A DNA stretch of 36,047 bases from a virus, in the IMG/VR virus record IMGVR_UViG_3300028840_003592, positions 1-36,047 of that record; one strand, written 5' to 3'. Positions within the stretch are counted from its first letter, which is position 1, and each line of letters opens with the position of its first letter. Of the stretch, positions 3,708 through 34,405 are shown piece after piece. Below the pieces are notes generated by a model. The model was given only the letters and a program-made list of their open reading frames with translations, did not search any database and had not been told where the DNA came from. A program made the position numbers and the translations under genes.

Positions 3708-3829
3708 GGCAATTCCCTGCAATCATAAAGTTCTCTATCACAAGGTTCTTTTTTAGTATGCCACTTTATAGGTTTTGAAGAACAGCCTATAAATAATAAC
3801 AATAGAATTGCTATGTAGTTATATTTCAT
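3704..3829 (-). CDS. Tiny lipoprotein, candidate outer-membrane spanin
   Basis: A 41-residue frame starts at the ATG at 3829 and ends in a TGA that overlaps the amidase start. It begins MKYNYIAILLLLFIGC, a short signal peptide followed by a lipobox-like FIGC with SS after the cysteine. The mature part is about 26 residues (C16-P41), with two more cysteines (30 and 37). Size, lipid anchor and position beside the endolysin fit the outer-membrane subunit of a two-part spanin (lambda Rz1 type). It lacks the proline richness of Rz1, and no adjacent inner-membrane partner is evident. The first 11 bases overlap the end of the decarboxylase gene. The ribosome site is weak (GTGGAA), so translation may depend on coupling. 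Confidence 0.6.
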   Translation of the reverse strand: MKYNYIAILLLLFIGCSSKPIKWHTKKEPCDRELYDCRELP

Positions 3830-4214
3830 ATTGAGGTATTCCACGATCTATGGTTCTGGTATTGGAGCTGATCATCTCAAACTCATTGCTCAAGTAGGAA
3901 ATGGCTTTCATGGGGTCGCTTTTATCTCCACAGGACGATAAATCAATGGTGATACCCCGGTGCTCTGGATAAGTATGAAGGGTAAAGTGAGATTCTTCTA
4001 AAAGGAATATTAAGGTAATTCCCTGCGGTTTAAAGTTCTTTTCAAGGATAAGGTCTGTTCCGTCTGGATTCTTGGCTACTTTAATGTTAGAGAGCCTTAA
4101 AGCGTGTCTACAGGACGATTTAAGCCTGTCTATGTCCTCCATGTCCTCAAGAGACAGGTTTACACTCATATCGCATAGAATTTGCCGTTCTACACGCTTT
4201 AGCCCCTTATTCAT
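3819..4214 (-). CDS. speD: S-adenosylmethionine decarboxylase proenzyme
   Basis: This enzyme removes CO2 from S-adenosylmethionine to give the aminopropyl donor for spermidine synthesis. The family cleaves itself to make a pyruvoyl cofactor. The signature LLEESHFTLHTYPEHRG is present. Ser75 would be the cleavage and pyruvoyl residue after Glu74. His80 (five residues on) and Cys95 (twenty residues on) match the spacing of the catalytic histidine and cysteine in the bacterial class 1B enzymes. The motif SSCGDKSDP follows. At 131 residues it has the normal length for the small bacterial and archaeal form. No spermidine synthase is seen in the window. The ATG at 4214 has no Shine-Dalgarno sequence; instead it is preceded by TAACTACACTTAATT. 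Phage copies are known from cyanophages, so it may be an auxiliary metabolic gene. Confidence 0.88.
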   Translation of the reverse strand: MNKGLKRVERQILCDMSVNLSLEDMEDIDRLKSSCRHALRLSNIKVAKNPDGTDLILEKNFKPQGITLIFLLEESHFTLHTYPEHRGITIDLSSCGDKSDPMKAISYLSNEFEMISSNTRTIDRGIPQYEI

Positions 4215-4862: not shown

Positions 4863-4870
4863 AAATGTTC

Positions 4871-5377
4871 CTATTGGTTAATGATTGCCTGATTCACGCC
4901 TGCATCAAATTCAGGAGTATTGCGCTTGTACACTCCAAATTGCAGGAACAGATTATGTTCCCTAAACAAATTATCTGTATTTACATAAGATATCTTATAA
5001 AAGACACCTTTAAAAGAGAACAGGTCTGTGACAGCAATTTCCCGATCATCAAAATCGGCTTTATGAACGGTAAGAATGCCATCAATGTCTCTGGCAGTAC
5101 CAATCTCCTTCATAAGATCTTCGGACGGAGAAGTATCGAGTCTGCCCTTAACGGTGAATGGATCGCCAAAAATTTCAGTAATCCATTCATCAAAAACATC
5201 GTGGCGCACAGAGGCATTGAGATCGAGCTTCCAATGGGTAATAGTAGCAGTCAATCCATATTCCCACAGGTTTTGTCCGTCCTTAATGTACTCCTGCTCG
5301 TCTTTTTCGTCAACGTAGTCCCTTGTGTATTCACGCAAGGGAGAACGATCCATTTTGATTTCAGATTTAAGATCCAT
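4871..5377 (-). CDS. Hypothetical protein after the fibre genes
   Basis: A 168-residue acidic, soluble protein. It has several aromatic strands (GLTATITHWKLDLNASVRH, FSFKGVFYKISYVN, HNLFLQFGVYKR), which suggest a mixed alpha/beta fold with a small barrel. There is no signal or membrane segment. It lies one base after the 995-residue fibre gene and directly before the basic small genes. This position would fit a virion or neck-type component, but I see no diagnostic motif and do not assign a function. Confidence 0.65.
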   Translation of the reverse strand: MDLKSEIKMDRSPLREYTRDYVDEKDEQEYIKDGQNLWEYGLTATITHWKLDLNASVRHDVFDEWITEIFGDPFTVKGRLDTSPSEDLMKEIGTARDIDGILTVHKADFDDREIAVTDLFSFKGVFYKISYVNTDNLFREHNLFLQFGVYKRNTPEFDAGVNQAIINQ

Positions 5378-5378
5378 C

Positions 5379-8366
5379 TTAAGTTCCTACCCTTTGCATA
5401 AACATATTTGCAGAATAAATTTTTATGCTGTTAGTAGCCCCTATATTAGCTACCCATAATTCCAAGGTATCACCATCAGATAATTCTATAACACCTGATA
5501 TGGAAACACAAATTCTTTCATCCACAGCGTAAACTGTAGCCTCATTTTGTAAATTTTCAAAAGCTGTGGCTCCATTATTTTTAAAAACTTTAAAGCGAAT
5601 AAGATCTGCTGCATTAGTTCCAGAAAAAGTTGCGCTTATAGAAACAAAATATTTACCAGCAGAATCAGCAGTAATGTGATAATTAGTATAGTCAGGAGTA
5701 GCGCCCTCATAATCATCATTAGTAGTAAAACCATTATATTGATAATAAGTTCCGTCTACAGCAAGTGTTCTTGTTCCGGGGGAATCTATATTTGTATCAG
5801 AAATTCCTCCATAAATATTACTCAGACTTTCATGTGTATGCAAAGAATCTGCATCACTTCCATCAGAAAGAGTATTAAGTTGTGCGCCTGTAATAGTCGT
5901 TACAGTGCCTTTTAAAGTAAACACCACAGGAGAAGTTAAAGTAGATCCTATTGTAAAAGATCCAGATGATGCAGGACTAAAATCAAAAGTAGATCCTTGT
6001 CCTAATATTTGAAAAACGGAATTAACAGTATTTATACTAACGCTTTGAAAAGATAAATTTCTTATATAGCCTTCATAAGCACTGATTTTTCCAGATTCTC
6101 CATCTATAATAACAGCAACGTTTCCATTTGAAGGATTAACATTTAAAACAGAACCCGGAAAATCTGTTCCAAAGGGTACAGCAACAATGCCGTTTCTTCC
6201 TTCAAGAACAATCATACCGCCACTAGTAGCATGAAGTCCTGTTCCAGATCCATAATAAGTTCTTAGCTTTAAAAAGGTTCCCCATGTTCCAACAGCAGAA
6301 TCAATTTGTCCAGACATTTCAATAATAGGATCACCATGAGAAGTAGAAACTCCTTGATCATCTGATAAAGCTCTGGTGACATTAATAAGCTGAGTAGTCA
6401 ATTCTCCTTTATCAAAAGACGTGTTTCCGTAAGGCATCTGAATATGAGTACCTCCTACAAGCCTTTCTCTAGTAGGAGCTTTACAGATAAATTGTCCCCC
6501 CGTTAATCCGAGTTCATCTTCACAGAGAATAATCTTCGGAAGCTCTATGCCTTTCTTATGAAGTTGATTCCAGTAGTTTGTCACCTCAACAACGGTGTCT
6601 CTTAAAGTAGTAGGCAAAAGAGCCGCAAAAGCACCACGAATCTTTGCCAGTGCCGTATCAAGACTTGAAGGAACAGTCTGTAAATCGCTCTCGTCATTGT
6701 CAGCATCATGATCATAAGGCAAAAGAGTAGACCCTTCTTTATAATCAGTATCGCCTTTTACAATAACAGGAGTGTCCAAAGGAGAAGCCACGATTTCTTG
6801 TATGGTTGCAGTTTTTGAAGGACTTGCTCCTGTATCAGTAATCACATTGCCGACAAGGGGTGTTCCTTGAGACATAGTGACATAGAGAAGATTAGGAGCA
6901 ACAACTTTTATAACTCTGCCAGATAAACGATCTCCAACATAAACATTTTCAACACCAAATGTGCCAACAGCATCCACCCGAAAAATATAGCGAGAATGAA
7001 GATTGGCAACATTTTCCTGAAAACTTGATTTAATTTTATCAAGAGCATTGATCTGATAGGTTCTGCGATCCCATAAGTAGCTGATATCGCCCGCATCAGT
7101 TTCAAAACCGACATAGCCATCAGTTCCTCCGACAATATCATAAAGAACGAAACGAAATGTAGCGATAACAAAATTTGCTTCATCAGAATCAACATCCCAT
7201 CGATCCTTAACGAAATCAGAAACAGAGTTGTTACCAAGTTTTGTTATTGAATAAGAAGTTGCTTTTGTCAGGTCAAGCGCATTCGCCTTGAGGACATACA
7301 CTCCATCGGTAACATCATCCTCACTCGGAGAAGCTCCAAATTCGTCAAGAATAGATTTTAAAAAAACATCAGAAACAATGTTGACAATGTTAAACGCCTG
7401 ATCAGAAGCCAGATCAGTATAAGCATTCAAATCAGGAAAATGCAGTTGTTCCCCTGTTGCTGTTTGTTTGATATTAATTTTTTTAATATACCAAGTGGTT
7501 ATTCCGCTTGCGTGAGCAGGATAAGAGTAAGGAGAACCAGGAACAGCTCCTAGAGAAGCCTGCAATCCATCATAGCTTCCTATAGCAGAAGAATAAATAA
7601 GTCCTGCACGTTCCGTATCTCTGCGGTGAGCTAAATCACCGCCAGTGTACAGTTCAGTATCAGGTGCTCCGTTAAATTCCTGAGAAGAAGCCTGATCAAA
7701 AGTAGGGGGGTTAGGAGACTGTAAATTAATATCTCCAAGATAATAAATATATCCTGTATATCCGTTTATTGCTGAATCCGCAAAAGACTCCTTTCCATCA
7801 AAAGCGTGTCCAGTGCTATCATCGAGAATCTGTGCTTCATTGGAATCTATGCGATCAACATTTGTTCCAGACTCATCAGAATCCCAATCAATATAAATAT
7901 CCCACAAACGCCTTTCGACAACAGCAGTATCAACCTGAATCGCCTGTCCTGTTTTGTCTAAAACAGTAAGCTTTCGAGCAGGATCTAAATAATCCTGTTT
8001 GGCATGAACAAGATAAACACGCCCATTACGATTTACAGCAGGAGAAGGAGCTACTGATTTATAGTCTTTAGTTGTGTCAATGGTTTGGTTTGAAGCAATA
8101 TTTAATCTGTAGCCATCCTGCCAGAGAGTTCCAGAAGATAAACTTAAAGATCCGCCAGAGTAGCTAAGAATAAAATCCGTAGAGTATTTTTTTCCTTGTG
8201 TAAATCCGTCAACAATAATCCTTCTCCGCATAAATTCATCAATGGCTGACTGCTCATTGAGATCAATATTCTGCGGTGCGCCTCCGTTTACAACTTTAGT
8301 CTTTTCGTAGCCGTTAGCTGAATTGAAGGTGTTCCGTCCTTCATAGTTTAAGAATTGCTCTGCCAT
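5379..8366 (-). CDS. Large tail fibre/baseplate-attached protein with C1q-like end
   Basis: A 995-residue protein. The N-terminal 350 residues (MAEQFLNYEGRNTFNSANG... with FMRRRIIVDGF) look like the virion-anchoring part found at the head of phage fibres that carry DUF4815; this match is from memory and moderate. The middle is beta-rich, with a collagen-free shaft and stretches typical of beta-helical fibres (about 650-850). The last 130 residues (about 866-995) look like a C1q/TNF-type jelly roll: YNGFTTNDD, AGKYFVSISATFSG, FKVFKNNGA, ISGVIELSDGDTLELWV. Such domains trimerise at fibre tips and often bind receptors. The start has AAGGAG upstream. It follows the gpI-like gene, as fibres commonly do. 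Confidence 0.75.
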   Translation of the reverse strand: MAEQFLNYEGRNTFNSANGYEKTKVVNGGAPQNIDLNEQSAIDEFMRRRIIVDGFTQGKKYSTDFILSYSGGSLSLSSGTLWQDGYRLNIASNQTIDTTKDYKSVAPSPAVNRNGRVYLVHAKQDYLDPARKLTVLDKTGQAIQVDTAVVERRLWDIYIDWDSDESGTNVDRIDSNEAQILDDSTGHAFDGKESFADSAINGYTGYIYYLGDINLQSPNPPTFDQASSQEFNGAPDTELYTGGDLAHRRDTERAGLIYSSAIGSYDGLQASLGAVPGSPYSYPAHASGITTWYIKKINIKQTATGEQLHFPDLNAYTDLASDQAFNIVNIVSDVFLKSILDEFGASPSEDDVTDGVYVLKANALDLTKATSYSITKLGNNSVSDFVKDRWDVDSDEANFVIATFRFVLYDIVGGTDGYVGFETDAGDISYLWDRRTYQINALDKIKSSFQENVANLHSRYIFRVDAVGTFGVENVYVGDRLSGRVIKVVAPNLLYVTMSQGTPLVGNVITDTGASPSKTATIQEIVASPLDTPVIVKGDTDYKEGSTLLPYDHDADNDESDLQTVPSSLDTALAKIRGAFAALLPTTLRDTVVEVTNYWNQLHKKGIELPKIILCEDELGLTGGQFICKAPTRERLVGGTHIQMPYGNTSFDKGELTTQLINVTRALSDDQGVSTSHGDPIIEMSGQIDSAVGTWGTFLKLRTYYGSGTGLHATSGGMIVLEGRNGIVAVPFGTDFPGSVLNVNPSNGNVAVIIDGESGKISAYEGYIRNLSFQSVSINTVNSVFQILGQGSTFDFSPASSGSFTIGSTLTSPVVFTLKGTVTTITGAQLNTLSDGSDADSLHTHESLSNIYGGISDTNIDSPGTRTLAVDGTYYQYNGFTTNDDYEGATPDYTNYHITADSAGKYFVSISATFSGTNAADLIRFKVFKNNGATAFENLQNEATVYAVDERICVSISGVIELSDGDTLELWVANIGATNSIKIYSANMFMQRVGT

Positions 8367-26922: not shown

Positions 26923-27824
26923 TATGCGCTCCCCGGTACAGGAACACCTCTGATAGATCCATCAGATAAATCCCCAAGTTGCCGTTGATACAGTGTAGAA
27001 TAAACCACATCATCCTCAAGGTTCTTATTTTCAAGAACGCAAAAACCTAAATTTAACATACATCGAGTTATGTTCATGCGCCAATCTGATTTTTGAATTT
27101 CCACATCACAGGTTTCACAATAACAACGTACCATCCAATCCTGATACGCAACGAAAAGCTCTGGTATGCGCTTTGTCTTTTTGTCCGGTCTGCAAAGACG
27201 CTCATACCAATTAATGACAGGAGCCAATGAAGCCAAGCCTGTTTCAAAAGGATCTTCTGCACCTCCTTCAATTGCCGAAGCGGTGTGATAAGTTTGTAGT
27301 TCCCTGATAGTGGGAAACAATCCGATTGCGCCCTCTACAGCACTCGCTAGTAAAGATCCATCGGTATTATTCCACAAGGACGCATCGAACATCAATTGAA
27401 AGCTGAATTTCTGCGGAGGAATATCAGCTTGGTGAAAACGAGGTTTATTACCCGGAATATTTATTTGAGCAATGCCTGATCGGGTAGATCTGCTCCATGT
27501 TGTAGGATTATACATAAAGAACATGGCATTGCTGAATATTTCATCATTGAAAAATAATTTTTCGTAGTTACGCTTAAATCCCTGTGCAGGAAAGAACATT
27601 GAGTTTAAAGACTCTTTCTCACGTTCAACGGCTTTCTTCAAGCCTCTAATGCCTGTGTTCTCGGCATAGATATTATAAATGGAGTTGTAGCGTGTCTCTC
27701 CAATGATTTCCTGCGGATCAGAGAGTTTTATAATAGCACCCTTACGAACAGTCCTTTCCCAAGGAGTGCCTGTAATGCGCCCTGCAAGGGCTTTATTCAT
27801 CATGGAGAATGCTTGACCCCACAT
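26922..27824 (-). CDS. Tube initiator protein, CIS-tube/gp53-gp48-like
   Basis: A 300-residue protein resembling the contractile-injection-system tube family, whose members start the inner tube at the baseplate (T4 gp48/gp54 analogues). Its hallmark is FMYNPTTWSRS, then INIPGNKPRFHQADIPPQKF and SFQLMFDASLW: an F-x-x-NP strand, a polar loop and a second strand ending in L-x-FD. The distal part IQKSDWRMNITRCMLNLGFC fits the second half of the fold. It is next to the tape-measure gene with a one-base overlap, as expected for this family. Several cysteines (RCYCETCDVE) are clustered and could bind metal. Confidence 0.72.
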   Translation of the reverse strand: MWGQAFSMMNKALAGRITGTPWERTVRKGAIIKLSDPQEIIGETRYNSIYNIYAENTGIRGLKKAVEREKESLNSMFFPAQGFKRNYEKLFFNDEIFSNAMFFMYNPTTWSRSTRSGIAQINIPGNKPRFHQADIPPQKFSFQLMFDASLWNNTDGSLLASAVEGAIGLFPTIRELQTYHTASAIEGGAEDPFETGLASLAPVINWYERLCRPDKKTKRIPELFVAYQDWMVRCYCETCDVEIQKSDWRMNITRCMLNLGFCVLENKNLEDDVVYSTLYQRQLGDLSDGSIRGVPVPGSA

Positions 27825-30421
27825 TATACGCCTCCTGCGAGTCGAGAAGCAAAAACATTTCCACCCATCTGAGTCATCATGGTGCGCCTTGTAAATTCAT
27901 CAAAGATCTCTCTGAATATAGGTGGCAGTAATTCCTGTGTCTTGCGAGTGTTGTTTGCGGTTTCTTCGGTATTCTCGTTACCTTCTTCCATTAATTTAGC
28001 ATGGTTGCCAAATAAACGAGTGATGTTTTCAACAAGAAATTCCGTGTCTTTGGATTTTGTAGAAAGTGCTTCTTTAATTAGTTCTGGAGCACCTCTCTGC
28101 TGAATTTGCTTTTCAAGAAATTTATTTTGAGCCGCAGTTAATTTTTGAGTTCCAGAAGGAATACCGGGAAGCTCTGCTCCCCCAATCCTGATTCCGTGAC
28201 GATATATTTCCTTAACCCATTGTTCAGGAGTTAATTCTTTTCCGGCTTCTCCAAGAATCATGTTAGCAATAGAGGCACCACCTTCTTCTCCTGTCATAAA
28301 AGGCATTAATAATTTAGATTGTAATAGTCCTTGTCCTTTAATCTTGCCTGTTAAAGTTCCCTTTAAAATTTCTGACGCACCAGAAATTTTAGCCTCTGCC
28401 ATTCCAGCATAAGGAGCACCCGGTTCTCCTGCAAGTTTCTTAAAGCTTTTTTCTCCTCTGATGTAAGACATTAAATTTTTAATGGCTAATGCTCGTTCAG
28501 TAGCAGTTCCCTTTCTGCCTAAGACCATCTCAGCCGCTTTTCTTCTTCTTTCCCTAATCTGATCAAGCACAGAAGTTTTCCATTCTGTATATTCTCGATT
28601 CCATTGTTTTTGTTGTTCAGTTTCAAGAATTCCACCGGGAAGGGTGCGAAGTGCCTCAAGCTGTTGAGCCGAAGTAATCATACTTTCTCTTAAAGCAGAA
28701 ACTCTTTTTGCAGTAATAGGCATTACTTCTAATCCGCCTTTACCAACAGTTAATTTGCCTTTTTGCCACGCTTCTCCTAAAATTACTCTTTTTTCTCCCT
28801 TTTCTCCTGTAGTTTCTTCAAGATATTTGTACAAGCCTACATCACGATACATTTTTTCAGCCGCAAACTTTGATATACGCTTACCTATAAGCTGAGTTTG
28901 AATATATTGATGTATTTTTTCATAGGCTTCTTTTGTTTCAGGAGATTTAGCGGGCATTCCTTCAAAGAGTGTTCCTTTTCCTCCAACTTCTGTATATTCT
29001 TTTAATTGCCTTGCTCCCTCTCGCAATTGAGTGGCGATAGATGTGTATTCTTCTGTTTGATAACCACGAGCTATGCTGACAAGTTTATCTGTTTCTTCTC
29101 GGCTCTTTTTGATCATCAAATAAATTTTATAGATGCCTGCTCCAACTAAAGCAAGTGCGCCTACAACGCCTGCAAAACGTAAAGCAACTCCCAATCCAGT
29201 AACAGAAGCTTGTGCTACTCTAGCAGTAACGCCCACAGAGCCAAGCAATGCTCTCATTCTTGTCAATAAGCCAAGAGAAACGGCAATTCCTCCTGTAAGA
29301 CTCGATACCCCCAAAGCAAGTGCTCCGAACAGAGTAACGTATTTAACAATTTGAGGATGCAATTTTACAATGTTTACAAGCGTCTTAGCTATGGATAAAA
29401 AGTATTTTGCAAGAACCATTATGGATTCTGTCATGCCAGTAAATACTTTAGCAATTGCCTGCACAGATTCCTTATCTCTACGAAAAGCTTTAAGGTAGGA
29501 AAAAATCTGCTGAAAGTATGGTGTCATTTCCTCAATAGATTTTCTGAACACATCATAAGCCAAGTTGGTCATAACGTCTTTAATATTATCCAAGGCGAAA
29601 CGTGCAGTATGCTCCACAGATTTCATTAAACCGCCGAATTTATCTGTAATGCCCTGCATAATGACATTAAATCGTTGCTGTGTGCTCATGGTTTTGTCTA
29701 TTCGTGCTCTGATCTCATCAATTATATTGAGGGGAATATCGAAACGCATCTGCAATGAACGCCACTGTCCAGAAAGAGCATTCCTGATGGCGAACAATGC
29801 ACCTTGCATTCCCTGTTGAGGAACGAGAGTAGCCAAATCAGACAACGATTTAAGAGAAGATTGAATCTCCCCTTTCTTAGTGACCATCTCAGAAAAAGGA
29901 TTGATTTTCAAAACGCCGAGAGAGCGTGTGACATCGAGAACTTCACGAGTGGAAATATTGGTTTCCTGTGCAATGTTTAAAGCGTCACGCATTACAGCCT
30001 GAGATTTTCTACCAAAGGCGAAATCTAATCCACCTTTAATATATTCAAAAGATGTTCCAATATCAAAAAGCTGTCCATAAACGCCAGAGAATCCTCTCAT
30101 TATTGCTTTTGACACGTTAAGGCTTCTTTGTCCAACGAAATCGAACATATTGGCAAGATCATGGAGTCTGGAAATATTCGTGTGAGAGGCGATATCAGTG
30201 ATAGATTTTCCGGCTTGTCTCGCTCCTCTCTTGGCACTATCAATAGACTTTGCCAGAGTCATCATCTTTCTCGTTAATTTGGAGGATGCCTGTGCTGTTA
30301 AATGAGAAGAACGAGCCAGTTGCTCTTGGGCTTTAGCCATTTGACCGAACATTTGGGCGGCTGCTTTTCCACCTTTTGTCCGTAAATCAAATTTAAAAGC
30401 GTATTCTTTACCTCTTGCCAT
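27824..30421 (-). CDS. Tape measure protein
   Basis: An 865-residue tape measure, which sets tail length and is ejected before DNA. The N-terminal 100 residues are alanine/lysine/glutamine-rich helix. A conserved-type region follows at about 130-300 (IAQETNISTREVLDVTRSLG, QGALFAIRNALSGQWRSL). Two hydrophobic spans lie at about 361-387 and 405-437, common in tape measures and thought to enter the host membrane. The C-terminal half is charged helix. By the usual rule of about 0.15 nm per residue the tail would be roughly 130 nm (inference). It directly follows the chaperone frameshift region, the classical arrangement. Confidence 0.9.
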   Translation of the reverse strand: MARGKEYAFKFDLRTKGGKAAAQMFGQMAKAQEQLARSSHLTAQASSKLTRKMMTLAKSIDSAKRGARQAGKSITDIASHTNISRLHDLANMFDFVGQRSLNVSKAIMRGFSGVYGQLFDIGTSFEYIKGGLDFAFGRKSQAVMRDALNIAQETNISTREVLDVTRSLGVLKINPFSEMVTKKGEIQSSLKSLSDLATLVPQQGMQGALFAIRNALSGQWRSLQMRFDIPLNIIDEIRARIDKTMSTQQRFNVIMQGITDKFGGLMKSVEHTARFALDNIKDVMTNLAYDVFRKSIEEMTPYFQQIFSYLKAFRRDKESVQAIAKVFTGMTESIMVLAKYFLSIAKTLVNIVKLHPQIVKYVTLFGALALGVSSLTGGIAVSLGLLTRMRALLGSVGVTARVAQASVTGLGVALRFAGVVGALALVGAGIYKIYLMIKKSREETDKLVSIARGYQTEEYTSIATQLREGARQLKEYTEVGGKGTLFEGMPAKSPETKEAYEKIHQYIQTQLIGKRISKFAAEKMYRDVGLYKYLEETTGEKGEKRVILGEAWQKGKLTVGKGGLEVMPITAKRVSALRESMITSAQQLEALRTLPGGILETEQQKQWNREYTEWKTSVLDQIRERRRKAAEMVLGRKGTATERALAIKNLMSYIRGEKSFKKLAGEPGAPYAGMAEAKISGASEILKGTLTGKIKGQGLLQSKLLMPFMTGEEGGASIANMILGEAGKELTPEQWVKEIYRHGIRIGGAELPGIPSGTQKLTAAQNKFLEKQIQQRGAPELIKEALSTKSKDTEFLVENITRLFGNHAKLMEEGNENTEETANNTRKTQELLPPIFREIFDEFTRRTMMTQMGGNVFASRLAGGV

Positions 30422-30427
30422 AAGAAA

Positions 30428-30565
30428 TCACTTTTTTAAGTGTTCACATAACAGCTTTCTTTTTGTCTTAGGCAAACAGAGTGCTTCTGTTTTCGTCCAG
30501 TGTAGTTCGGAGCTTATTTTGATAACTTCAGCAAGAAGCTGATGGTCTGGAGTTATCAGACTCCG
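30428..30565 (-). CDS. Frameshift extension of tail assembly chaperone
   Basis: After a -1 shift on T TTT TTC (30565-30571) the ribosome would read CGG AGT CTG and 42 further codons to a TGA ending at 30428. That makes a product of about 337 residues. The extension contains LLAEVIKISSELHWTKTEAL and then LPKTKRKLLCEHL, a helix pair ending in a W...LP..KR.ll pattern that I recall from C-terminal extensions of other chaperones. The extension has no ribosome-binding start of its own. It is placed exactly between the chaperone and the tape measure, as in lambda G-T and P2 E-E'. Confidence 0.7.
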   Translation of the reverse strand, partial: RSLITPDHQLLAEVIKISSELHWTKTEALCLPKTKRKLLCEHLKK

Positions 30566-31440
30566 AAAAAATGAAGCACAGAAATAATCCCTGCAAATTT
30601 TTCTCCACAGGAACATTCAATAGGAGCTAAGATGTCTAAACCTGTTGTATTTTCTCCGATTGCTTCACTGATTTCCTCTCGATCAGTTTTCGCTAAAGAT
30701 CTGGCTACATCCAAATTAAAAGGAATAGCCTTATTCTTATTATTAATTGTCGATATACACATTGAAAAAAGAACTGATTGAGCCTTGGATTCGGCTGTAA
30801 GATACAGAGGCAAAGTTTCTTCCTGTGCTTTTCCATTAGGAAGATCGATAGTTACAGTTTTGTAAATGCTACCGTCTGTGTGCTTATAGCCTCTCTTAAG
30901 ATCTCTGGTAAAGGGTACAAACGGCTGATCAAGATAACGGACAGTCTGCTCGTGTAAGTGAGCAATGAAACCTTTCGCTCTACAGGAAGGACAGGTGGTT
31001 TCTTTAAGCTCAATCTCCTCTCCCTCACTCAGAATGTACACGCAGTACATAATGAAATCCCTGTTTGTCATGGGCATATCGAGAAAAAGTTTTCTCCATT
31101 CCACAGGCTTCATTTCTGATTTTTTATAGTCATCACCGAGTTGGGTTGTACAAGCGGCACACAAAGAGGTCATGTAGCGACCATGATTCTCTTTGTTCTG
31201 TGGAGTGTTATATTCTTCCTCAACGTAGCCGGTCACTTCTTGAATATAAGCTTTTTTAATAACCTTTCCCTTATATTCAAAAGGTTGTGGAAGAGTAATA
31301 ATGTCAGGAATTTCAACGAAATCTTTGAGCTTTTTTCGCTTGATATCGTTGGTAATGGCAGGCTGTTTTTCGGGGGCAGGCTTTTTAGTAGGTGCTTTTA
31401 GTATCGCTCCCTGATCAGTGTCCATTTTTGTGTTAGTCAT
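30556..31440 (-). CDS. Tail assembly chaperone / gp26-like protein with split zinc site
   Basis: A 294-residue protein immediately before the tape measure, in the place of lambda gpG and P2 gpE. The N-terminal 40 residues are basic and disordered. The body contains CPSC at 150-153 and CSC at 276-278, cysteine pairs that could close one zinc ribbon across 120 residues, as in gp26-type baseplate/chaperone proteins of large myophages (from memory). The zero frame ends two codons after the slippery site, so the -1 product replaces only the last two residues with 45 new ones. AAAGGAG lies before the ATG at 31440. It should bind the tape measure before tube assembly. Confidence 0.78.
   Translation of the reverse strand: MTNTKMDTDQGAILKAPTKKPAPEKQPAITNDIKRKKLKDFVEIPDIITLPQPFEYKGKVIKKAYIQEVTGYVEEEYNTPQNKENHGRYMTSLCAACTTQLGDDYKKSEMKPVEWRKLFLDMPMTNRDFIMYCVYILSEGEEIELKETTCPSCRAKGFIAHLHEQTVRYLDQPFVPFTRDLKRGYKHTDGSIYKTVTIDLPNGKAQEETLPLYLTAESKAQSVLFSMCISTINNKNKAIPFNLDVARSLAKTDREEISEAIGENTTGLDILAPIECSCGEKFAGIISVLHFFGV
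30565..30571 (-). promoter_or_regulatory. -1 programmed frameshift slippery site
   Basis: The minus strand reads T TTT TTC in the phase needed for tandem slippage (CAT TTT TTC GGA). The zero frame stops two codons later at TGA (30558-30556), while the -1 frame stays open to 30428. This is an X XXY YYZ heptamer in the conserved place for tail chaperone frameshifting. A downstream stem or pseudoknot is not obvious by eye. Confidence 0.75.
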
Positions 31441-31507: not shown

Positions 31508-32032
31508 TTACCCCCTGTTAAATGATCCCATCAAAGGATATTCAGCGTTCACGCCATGATGCTGAATAACCACGGTATTGACACGAAAGGCAGAGGTTAA
31601 AGAATCGAAACCGCCTTCTTCGAGCTTTTTTATGAAGGCTTTATATACACGAAATACAATGATAGCTTCATTGTTATTGTCCAATGCCTCTATCTTAATA
31701 TTCCGGGTAAAGGATGGTTTTACAACGCCAGATCCTTCAAGCTGAAAATATGTGCGGAACCAATGCCATAAATCAGAATCATTAGTAACTTCTCCCTTTG
31801 ATAATGAAATGTCACTCCATTTCATATAATCGGGAAAAAGGTGGGGAGCGTTATTCTCCCCACCTTCCCGATATTCAAAGGTCTGTAGTTCACCGCCCAA
31901 GCCAGAACAAGATATGAAATCAGCATTATAATATCCGCTTATGCTGACTCGGAACAGGTGAGCCATTGCAAGCGCACGTTTGACACCAAAGGCATTAAGC
32001 CCTTGTCCATAAAGATCTCGTACAAAAGGCAT
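31508..32032 (-). CDS. Tail tube protein, gp19-like (second copy)
   Basis: A 174-residue protein of the T4 gp19 tube family. Typical parts are MAHLFRVSISGYYNADFISC, GGELQTFEYREGG and KWSDISLSKGEVTNDSDLWHWF. The last pattern (strand, K-G, S/T-xD-LW-x-W) is a family mark. It lies three bases downstream of another gp19-like gene, so two related tube proteins are made side by side. One may form the tube and the other a terminator, an initiator layer or a minor tube ring. It ends in a TAA that is part of a GTAACTACACTTAAT motif. Confidence 0.85.
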   Translation of the reverse strand: MPFVRDLYGQGLNAFGVKRALAMAHLFRVSISGYYNADFISCSGLGGELQTFEYREGGENNAPHLFPDYMKWSDISLSKGEVTNDSDLWHWFRTYFQLEGSGVVKPSFTRNIKIEALDNNNEAIIVFRVYKAFIKKLEEGGFDSLTSAFRVNTVVIQHHGVNAEYPLMGSFNRG

Positions 32033-32035
32033 AGC

Positions 32036-32578
32036 TTATACGAGGGCTATGGGCATTCCGCTGTCAACGTTCACTTCCTCAAAGTAACGCATCTGGACGA
32101 CACAGCTTACGCCAAGCACGTCAGACGTGTTCGCATCGAAGTTGCCGAGATTCCATTCGGACACCCAGGTATCGAAGCATTTCCATGCCTTTGATACAAT
32201 GGGATCGCCTCCCTGTCCGGCTTCAAGAAGCTTGATGGTGATATCCTCTTTCACCGCATCTTCTTCATTGATCGTGCCTGTGATCCCTGCGCCTTGAGCA
32301 GAATACACCTCATTGGTGAGCTTCCAGAGGTCGGATTGATCTCTGAAAATGCCCTGCTCCATCGTAATAGGATCATAGGTCACAAGCCCTGACAGTTTGC
32401 GAGAATAACGTGGATCTCCACCCTCACGGTAAGTAATCACATCGATCTTGCGTGAGAGTCCTGAAATCGTGCGGAATCCCGCCTGATCGTCGGCTTCAAG
32501 ACCGATTTGGCTTTCGCCAAGCTTCGTTCTCGTTACCCTGAACAGGAAGTTCTTTAGAGGATCAATATTGTTTGCCAT
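32036..32578 (-). CDS. Tail tube protein, gp19-like (first copy)
   Basis: A 180-residue tube-family protein. It has FLFRVTRTKLGESQIGLEAD, FRTISGLSRKIDVITYREGG and RKLSGLVTYDPITMEQGIF, then SDLWKLTNEVYS. The YREGG motif and the strand followed by DLW are shared with the gene directly downstream. The strong ribosome site (GGAGGAACT) and position right after the sheath gene are classical for the major tube subunit. It is probably the main tube component, with the following paralogue specialised. Confidence 0.87.
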   Translation of the reverse strand: MANNIDPLKNFLFRVTRTKLGESQIGLEADDQAGFRTISGLSRKIDVITYREGGDPRYSRKLSGLVTYDPITMEQGIFRDQSDLWKLTNEVYSAQGAGITGTINEEDAVKEDITIKLLEAGQGGDPIVSKAWKCFDTWVSEWNLGNFDANTSDVLGVSCVVQMRYFEEVNVDSGMPIALV

Positions 32579-32593
32579 AATTAGTTCCTCCGT

Positions 32594-34405
32594 TTATAAT
32601 TGAGAGATTTGTTCGATTTGTGTTCCTGCTCTGGTCTGCGTGAAGCGATAGATCAAGAACTCCGCAGGTTTCAGATGAGCAACACCCACGTCAATGATGA
32701 AGCGTCCATCGTCAATGGTGTCTTGAGTATTATTCGTTGAATCGCACCTGACGATAAAAGCATCAGCAGGATTTTTGGAAGCGAGCGTTCCTGCAACAGC
32801 GAGTTTGGTCATAAAGGAAATAACGGCTTCACGAACATTTCTCCGAAGCTCTGATTGGAGAACCTCGTGAGGCTCAAAAGCAGCCCAACGAGTTGAGTTC
32901 ATAACCGATTCCTCGATCCACGATTGGTAACGCCTGACGGAAATGTAACGCCATTTAATGTTGTTGCTCTGCGTTCTTGCGCCCCAAACGATAGTGCCTA
33001 CACCCAAGAAAGTACGGATGCAGTTGAGTCCGATAGGATTAAGGACATCCTGATCTTCATCAGACACTTCATGTTTGAGAGCAGTAACACGAGGAAGAAT
33101 AGCGGTTTCCCCGGCAGGAGATTTGTGAATGCCTCTTTCCTGATCGGTGAGTGTCCACAATCCTGCGATATCACCGACAGTAGGCATCATCCACGGACGA
33201 TTCGTGCGAGCATTGTTGACCTGAATCCACGGATAGTAAAGTGCGCCGAACATATTCTTGTAATTAATTGTGGATTGCACTTCATAATATGCAGATCCGG
33301 CTGTCGAGCCTGTACGAGTGGCATCTTCGGAGATATCCCCGATGAACATTCCAAACCGTTTGGATTTGGCAAGAAGGACACCGTTCTTGTACAACGTGGC
33401 ATTGTTGGGAGTCACAAGACCCCAGTGGTCAACGCAGAAAAGGATTTTAGCCTGTGCCACATCTTTGACGAGATTCAAGCCCACGTTGTCTGTGCCGACA
33501 AAATCCGTATCGTCAATGCTAGTCAGACCGTCATTTCCTCCTGCAAGCGTAATCGTGTTGTTGTTCTTCGGGCGGTCGTCCGTAGTCGTGTCGATTGTAC
33601 CGGAAAGTTCAGCAATGCAGATCGTGGATTTGGAATTAATGCCGTAATTGTCGGCATTGAGGATTGCATAGATGTAGCGAGAAGATGTTTCAGAAATGGA
33701 GAGGCGGTCAAAAACTTCAACGCTTCCACGGTGGTTAATAGTGGCTTTGAACGTTAGGACTTCGATTGTGACGCTTCCTGTCGGGGAGCCTGAGAGGGCA
33801 TCCTCAACAGTAACCGTATTCTGTCCATCATCCATTTCGGAGACAACAGAATATTCGGCAGAGCCTAAGCCTCCGCCCGAGATTTTGACATGATCTCCGA
33901 CCTCAAAGCCATCGGCATTGTCGAGATTGTAAGTCTTTGCGCCAGTGGCAGGCGTGTCAGACGTGTCAGATTTGGCTTTGGGATCGCTGTCCTCATTTTC
34001 AGTGAGCATGGTGGCACCAGCCGCCCATGTCCCTTCGTTGCGTCCTTTAAGAACGCCAATGGTCGTATCACCTGTGTTCACGATGTTGACCTGGGCATGA
34101 GTAGCGTCATAAACGCCTAATGTGCCTCCGTAGTGTGCTGTACGCACAACGATTAGTGGTGCTCTGGCTGTTGAAAAATACCCGAGCATGGCATCGTAAG
34201 AGTAATATCCCTTTACGGGACCGCCATAGATAGTACGGTATTCATCCGGTGAACGGACAACGACAGGAACGCCGAGAGGACCCTTTTCGGCTACCACAGG
34301 CATAGCTCCAAAGCCCCTTCCTGCGCCGGAAACTAGTCTTGGACCAATCTCCACTTCCTGTAAGTATTGCCCCGGATGAGCTACCTCTATAATGGGTGCT
34401 GGCAT
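32594..34405 (-). CDS. Contractile tail sheath protein
   Basis: A 603-residue sheath subunit that forms the contractile outer cylinder around the tube. The opening PIIEVAHPGQYLQEVEIGPR, then PVVAEKGPLGVPVVVRS and YYSYDAMLGYFSTARAPLIV, is the usual sheath N-terminus. An insert at about 125-225 is beta-rich (GFEVGDHVKISGG, NTVTVEDALSGSPTGSVTIE) and likely forms a surface domain. The C-terminal domain is conserved: LNPIGLNCIRTFLGVGTIVWGART, WRYISVRRYQSWIEESV and FIIDVGVAHLKPAEFLIYRF. A consensus-like promoter is 102 bases upstream and the ribosome site AAAGGAG is near the ATG. It is the first gene of the long tail operon. Confidence 0.95.
   Translation of the reverse strand: MPAPIIEVAHPGQYLQEVEIGPRLVSGAGRGFGAMPVVAEKGPLGVPVVVRSPDEYRTIYGGPVKGYYSYDAMLGYFSTARAPLIVVRTAHYGGTLGVYDATHAQVNIVNTGDTTIGVLKGRNEGTWAAGATMLTENEDSDPKAKSDTSDTPATGAKTYNLDNADGFEVGDHVKISGGGLGSAEYSVVSEMDDGQNTVTVEDALSGSPTGSVTIEVLTFKATINHRGSVEVFDRLSISETSSRYIYAILNADNYGINSKSTICIAELSGTIDTTTDDRPKNNNTITLAGGNDGLTSIDDTDFVGTDNVGLNLVKDVAQAKILFCVDHWGLVTPNNATLYKNGVLLAKSKRFGMFIGDISEDATRTGSTAGSAYYEVQSTINYKNMFGALYYPWIQVNNARTNRPWMMPTVGDIAGLWTLTDQERGIHKSPAGETAILPRVTALKHEVSDEDQDVLNPIGLNCIRTFLGVGTIVWGARTQSNNIKWRYISVRRYQSWIEESVMNSTRWAAFEPHEVLQSELRRNVREAVISFMTKLAVAGTLASKNPADAFIVRCDSTNNTQDTIDDGRFIIDVGVAHLKPAEFLIYRFTQTRAGTQIEQISQL

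Follow-up and report, generated by a model that had tools for sequence, protein, structure and literature searches.

The window analysed here, which is the entire 36,047-base virus record IMGVR_UViG_3300028840_003592, very probably encodes a tail assembly chaperone whose long form is made by -1 ribosomal frameshifting. As such, it is a further case of the already known G/GT-type chaperones with -1 frameshifting. Beyond the window, it is likely that one chaperone family, carrying the same extension, arrives at its long form by at least three routes: a -1 shift at U6 or A3U3 sites in phages like that of the window, a +1 shift at UUU|C in one clade of phages, the Streptomyces BRock-like phages among them, and a -1 shift at GGGGGAA in bacterial and archaeal extracellular contractile injection systems. 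On this reading, injection systems would also build their tubes with a G/GT-type chaperone made by frameshifting, and the direction of the shift would be exchangeable while its product is kept.

Gene layout of the tail module

The minus strand of the window carries a contractile-tail module that runs from a sheath gene through two tube genes, the chaperone and the tape measure to a set of baseplate genes. The order of sheath, tube, chaperone and tape measure matches that found in relatives. The relevant features are:

32594..34405, minus strand: tail sheath protein (PF04984, PF17482; phrog_23)
32036..32578, minus strand: tail tube protein, gp19-like, copy 1 (PF06841, E 2.2e-23)
31508..32032, minus strand: tail tube protein, gp19-like, copy 2 (PF06841, E 5.7e-23)
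30556..31440, minus strand: zero-frame gene, 294 amino acids, gp26/T4_baseplate-type tail assembly chaperone, short form (TAC-N)
30428..30565, minus strand: -1 frame extension, 45 codons plus TGA, C-terminal part of the predicted long form (TAC-NC)
27824..30421, minus strand: tape measure protein, 865 amino acids, assigned by position and length

The interval between the tube genes (31508-32578) and the long open reading frame (ORF) at 27824-30421 houses the chaperone gene, which is preceded by a strong Shine-Dalgarno (SD) sequence, AAAGGAGU. Family searches with the tape-measure ORF, including Pfam and PHROGs, returned no match. The SD of this ORF is weak (-1.6 kcal/mol). Because its ATG (30421) lies only 6 nt past the stop of the -1 frame and its SD is almost absent, translation of the tape measure may depend on frame-shifted ribosomes. 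With regard to the gene model, the 45 codons 5' of the tape measure would belong to the long form of the chaperone and be neither a separate gene nor intergenic DNA. The two adjacent gp19-like tube genes (31508-32032 and 32036-32578) are divergent, being 19% identical, and are paired as in injection systems and some myophages.

The predicted shift site and its surroundings

The 3' end of the chaperone gene reads CTT CAT TTT TTC GGA GTC TGA. The original prediction had placed the heptamer T TTT TTC at 30565-30571, with the zero-frame stop two codons later and a -1 frame that stays open for 45 more codons up to just before the tape measure, and each of these elements is seen in the sequence. The zero-frame stop TGA occupies 30558-30556, two codons past the heptamer. 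Reading in the -1 frame after a slip gives CGG AGT CTG ATA..., which is translated as RSLITPDHQLLAEVIKISSELHWTKTEALCLPKTKRKLLCEHLKK (RSLITPDHQ...EHLKK) and ends at a TGA (30430-30428) located 6 nt before the tape-measure ATG. The predicted long form would therefore comprise 337 amino acids (292 + 45), as opposed to 294 for the short form. Three features make up the site:

30565..30571, minus strand: slippery heptamer U_UUU_UUC (T_TTT_TTC)
30559..30564, minus strand: spacer of 6 nt, sequence GGAGUC
30520..30558, minus strand: stem-loop UGAUAACU...AGUUAUCA, 8 bp plus a nested UCAGC/GCUGA hairpin, candidate frameshift stimulator

The stem-loop, which was absent from the original prediction, has its base at the zero-frame stop codon, 6 nt 3' of the heptamer and hence at the canonical spacing. 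Its minimum free energy is -12.3 kcal/mol, with a z-score of -4.2 for the exact 39 nt and of -3.4 to -4.7 at other lengths. On the 5' side, an AGGG is found about 17 nt from the site, beyond the usual 10-14 for an SD-like stimulator, and it is not counted as one.

The heptamer carries little weight by itself. Of the approximately 11,300 codon positions of this AT-rich window, 54 have an in-frame heptamer of the form X_XXY_YYZ (Y = A or T), and a few other window genes also have such a heptamer near the 3' end. The site in the chaperone gene stands above chance because it is conserved in relatives and is accompanied by a stem-loop at the canonical spacing.

The chaperone protein and its family

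The zero-frame protein is too divergent to be listed in a Pfam scan, in which PF12322 was not reached, and PHROGs returned only a weak 'baseplate hub' match (E 0.0016). In an iterated profile of relatives whose seed contained the window, it scores 186 bits and joins its relatives at E 3.5e-55. Among those relatives, PF12322 (T4_baseplate) is over its cut-off in 10 of the 10 tested, including two loci (L003 and L044) with the extension in the +1 frame.

An AlphaFold2 model of the chaperone, predicted from 48 aligned sequences, has a pLDDT of 92 and a pTM of 0.85. In its second half, the model aligns with HK97 gp13 (2OB9), a tail assembly chaperone, at Z 6.5 and 3.0 A over 81 residues. This match comes from a second structural aligner and not from Foldseek, which found no PDB match for the model at E <= 0.001. 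A Z below 8 is modest when taken alone, and the weight of 2OB9 comes from its lead as the best PDB match over the runner-up at Z 3.0. A comparison of the sequence profile with the PDB produced zinc-finger and designed-protein matches only, which were taken as chance. In BFVD, several T4-like hub assembly proteins are among the matches of the model, as is Gp26 of Aeromonas phage 25 (E 7.9e-6).

Taken from sequence profiles and a predicted fold, the grouping of the window protein with T4 gp26-type chaperones is supported. The original prediction had called the protein gp26-like, which agrees with PF12322 in the relatives tested and with the gp26-type matches in BFVD; its broader proposal of a tail chaperone on the G/GT theme with -1 slippage at U_UUU_UUC gains support from the 2OB9 match and from the shift sites of relatives. 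The domains of the protein are arranged as follows:

30946..31335, minus strand: first chaperone domain copy, residues about 36-165, ending in a zinc-knuckle-like CPSC pair
30568..30945, minus strand: second chaperone domain copy, residues about 166-291, ending in CSC and matching 2OB9
30982..30993, minus strand: CPSC, residues 150-153, invariant cysteines of the chaperone family

The zero-frame protein had been described as about twice the usual size, and its doubled length is explained by a tandem duplication of one chaperone domain. When the two halves of the protein are aligned with hhalign (alignment A7), the probability is 99.6 and the E-value 9e-24, and relatives of 121-136 amino acids carry a single copy of the domain. 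The cysteine pairs (CPSC and CSC) had been singled out as the mark of a variant. They are present as described, but they are a hallmark of the family and not a peculiarity of the window, C150 and C153 being invariant in 48 sequences.

Relatives with the extension in the -1 frame

Close relatives of the window were not found by a phage DNA search, by chaperone and sheath scans of viral contigs or by a tape-measure search. The nearest chaperone relatives are about 25% identical at best, with the Streptomyces phages of the BRock group, which hold the gene at the same position, at about 24%. Relatives were gathered by scanning viral contigs with a sheath profile, which yielded 80 loci, and an iterated profile whose starting alignment included the window identified 83 gp26-like ORFs in the collected loci.

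The extension is homologous across loci despite differing frames. When the window is left out of a profile built from the -1 extensions of relatives, its -1 peptide still outranks every other six-frame peptide of the window, with E = 0.016 against 1.2 for the runner-up. There are 26 distinct loci with a -1 extension, the window included, and all 26 have TTTTTTN or AAATTTN in frame within the last 12 codons of the chaperone gene, whereas only 1 of the 520 other ORF ends in these loci does. L041, a near-copy of L038, also belongs to the -1 class. Among loci fetched later, six (L229, L231, L239, L247, L262 and L275) have GAT TTT TTC or GAT TTT TTT before the stop and one (L257) has A AAT TTT. The original prediction had looked to related phages for a missing slippery site or a stop in the -1 frame; instead, every member of the -1 class keeps both the open frame and a slippery heptamer, and the clade without the heptamer carries a homologous +1 extension behind TTT|C, which leaves the interpretation standing.

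Stimulatory elements are less uniform. For the -1 class as a whole, downstream structure is not supported as a shared trait, the mean z being -0.69 and that of controls -0.27. Because the class has no clear excess of structure, the stem-loop is best regarded as a trait of the window phage and some others. An SD-like stimulator for -1 slippage hardly sets the class apart, with -3.3 in the class and -2.9 in controls.

A clade with the extension in the +1 frame

In 32 loci, namely those of the Streptomyces phages BRock, pSt2308 and LuckySocke and 29 others, the homologous extension is in the +1 frame, and a profile of -1 extensions recovers these +1 extensions at E 4e-7 to 4e-3. The loci of the clade are L002-L010, L037, L039, a subset of L042-L090, L287, L290 and L299. 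A TTT followed by C (TTT|C) lies 1-6 codons before the stop in all 32, whereas only 13 of 732 background ORF ends have one, and loci fetched later also fit this rule. An SD-like element is found 2-5 nt 5' of the site, with pairing at a mean of about -2.9 kcal/mol for the best gaps compared to -0.3 at other TTTC sites; this spacing suits +1 shifting (PMC5009743). A +1 frameshift is also very likely used by the archaeal myovirus HSTV-2 (PMC5009743).

The +1 loci fall together in one clade of the chaperone tree, supported at 99/95, and a single change of direction therefore accounts for the data. The branch of the window is long and its placement uncertain. Public annotations of the +1 phages miss the extension and show either unrelated small ORFs or nothing in its place.

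Contractile injection systems and DUF6760

When the sheath alignment was used to scan genomes of bacteria and archaea, contractile injection operons came up, one of which (L097) contains two sheaths, a gp19 tube, CIS_tube/LysM and hub genes. In the injection operons, a one-domain chaperone is followed by a DUF6760 (PF20546) peptide in the -1 frame. Of 12 genomes tested, 10 have DUF6760 above the cut-off of the family, and it is present in 80 of the 189 genomes that were sampled from one bacterial phylum and in 19 of 296 from another. In all 58 loci read out, it occupies the -1 frame of the preceding ORF. The loci with DUF6760 are L171-L228, L092-L105, L129, L133, L139, L144, L150 and L161.

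The heptamer GGGGGAA lies within 6 codons of the stop in 29 of 41 distinct junctions, and 16 of those 29 are without a nearby ATG, GTG or TTG. The other 12 junctions are without GGGGGAA in that stretch; five of them have an ATG that overlaps or adjoins the stop and another (L208) has GGGGGAA just outside. Among ORFs of at least 110 amino acids in these loci, 47 of 814 have GGGGGAA in frame within their last eight codons, a figure in which the chaperone junctions are counted. In SEA-PHAGES chaperones, this same heptamer is the slippery sequence seen throughout the 'fivetwo' sites (PMC10885494).

When compared to DUF6760, the window extension scores 15.7-16.9 bits (E 0.0065-0.015). Since the curated cut-off is 27 bits, it is not assigned to the family and the likeness is treated as a resemblance only. 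In the open-access literature, no paper was found on DUF6760 or on frameshifting in contractile injection systems. If DUF6760 is a frameshifted chaperone extension, the family gains a proposed function. At one locus from Dormibacterota (L104, 9763-10650), a single frame runs through the chaperone and a DUF6760-like end, and the long form would therefore need no shift there.

Alternative readings of the junction

It is quite improbable that the -1 ORF stands as a small gene of its own, with translation starting at ATG 30616 through coupling to the upstream gene, so that no fusion protein is made. The original prediction had held that the extension has no ribosome start. This is correct as far as SD pairing is concerned, but an ATG does open the -1 frame of the window: the sole one in that frame, it lies at 30616, immediately past the frame's upstream stop, and its SD pairing amounts to 0 kcal/mol, where the genes of the window average -5.8 and most of them have an SD. 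In favour of coupling, there are four injection loci (L222, L224, L227 and L228) in which an ATG overlaps the zero-frame stop and a slippery site is absent. A separate gene is harder to reconcile with the 17 of 26 junctions in the -1 class and the 18 of 32 in the +1 clade that are without a nearby start codon yet keep both the extension and the shift site. A further 7 junctions of the -1 class are without an SD, and none of the +1 extensions has a start codon with one.

The chance is very slim that RNA polymerase, and not the ribosome, slips on the T run and that the extension is read from mRNAs that have gained or lost one base. While the site is a homopolymer, and one locus (L027) has eight consecutive T's at the gene end, RNA polymerase slippage usually needs runs longer than six T's and the run of the window has six only. 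The AAATTTN sites of five loci (L014, L020, L033, L034 and L046) have runs of four at most, GGGGGAA has five G's, and the +1 sites at TTT|C are without a long run.

A sequencing or assembly error that breaks one continuous ORF is scarcely credible: homopolymers are error-prone, the window is one metagenome-derived record and L104 is in a single frame, but dozens of independent records, isolate genomes among them, show the identical break at this position, and always with a slippery site. Almost no credence can be given to an accidental overlap with an untranslated extension, for even if an open run of 45 codons is not unusual by chance and the codon usage of the extension does not discriminate, at z -1.0 relative to real genes and +0.9 relative to off-frame reading (relatives as controls), the leave-one-out homology of the extension, the conserved shift site of the family and the canonically spaced stem-loop all speak against it.

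Proposed mechanism and comparison with known systems

In the frameshifting mechanism that we propose for the window, most ribosomes would reach the TGA at 30558-30556 and release the 294-residue short form. A minority, aided by the stem-loop 6 nt downstream, would slip by -1 on U_UUU_UUC and read the 45 further codons to give the 337-residue long form. We infer this slippage and its rate, as well as the roles of the two forms, the latter by analogy with the G/GT proteins of bacteriophage lambda (reviewed in PMC5009743). The chaperone domains of the short form would coat the tape measure during tail assembly, the helical extension on the few long forms may recruit tube subunits, and both forms would be expected to be absent from the finished tail. 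Ribosomes that finish the long form may, in turn, help to initiate the tape-measure gene just downstream.

The window shares its layout, a slippery site near the 3' end, the open frame beyond it and the fold with chaperones of the lambda G/GT type, a group that takes in HK97 gp13/14, P2 E/E' and Mu gp41/42. It differs from lambda G/GT in that its zero-frame protein has two chaperone domains, with cysteine knuckles, where lambda has a single one, and the slippery site of lambda is G_GGA_AAG where the window has U_UUU_UUC. T4 gp26 and gp51 probably belong to the same family as the window protein, as judged by PF12322 in the relatives and by the structural matches to T4-like hub assembly proteins. 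In T4, however, gp26 and gp51 are the short and long forms made from two genes with no frameshift, according to Vladimirov, Gautam and Davidson 2022 as cited in PMC10885494 and PMC12846349, whereas the window has one gene with a -1 shift site.

A poly-T -1 shift (GTTTTT) has been proposed for the chaperones of Vandenendeviridae and Andersonviridae myophages such as Pseudomonas phage Adele (PMC12846349). By its description, Adele resembles the window in its contractile tail, poly-T motif and open -1 frame 5' of the tape measure, but its motif is GTTTTT, and the window has a complete T_TTT_TTC heptamer that precedes the stop by two codons. The Streptomyces phages BRock, pSt2308 and LuckySocke have a homologous chaperone and extension and the gene order of the window, with the difference that they reach the extension in the +1 frame, past a UUU|C that has an SD-like element 2-5 nt to its 5' side. 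The DUF6760 injection operons have a similar extension in the -1 frame after a single-domain version of the chaperone, but their site is mostly GGGGGAA and they are encoded by the host and not by a phage.

In the open-access literature, no report was found of a -1/+1 split inside one homologous chaperone family or of DUF6760 as a frameshifted extension, and both the change of direction within the family and this reading of DUF6760 appear to be unreported. The family amounts to a natural experiment in which a homologous extension is reached by a -1 slip, by a +1 slip or, at a few loci, by a coupled start codon, and it makes testable whether the ratio of long to short form, and not the mechanism, is what is selected.

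Other features of the window

Pfam and PHROGs scans of the main ORFs of the window did not find capsid, portal or terminase genes, and for this reason the record probably covers one part of a larger genome. The chaperone model and the baseplate J protein both have Leptospira phage LE4 among their matches, which is a weak hint of a spirochaete host. An HNH endonuclease gene (PF01844, 19562-19891) lies in the baseplate module and has A AAT TTT and T TTT TTT 8-9 codons before its stop. An S-adenosylmethionine decarboxylase gene at 3819-4214 (PF02675, E 1.3e-20) is a possible polyamine-synthesis gene. Finally, two long ORFs on opposite strands, at 4865-5401 (plus) and 4871-5377 (minus), overlap almost completely.
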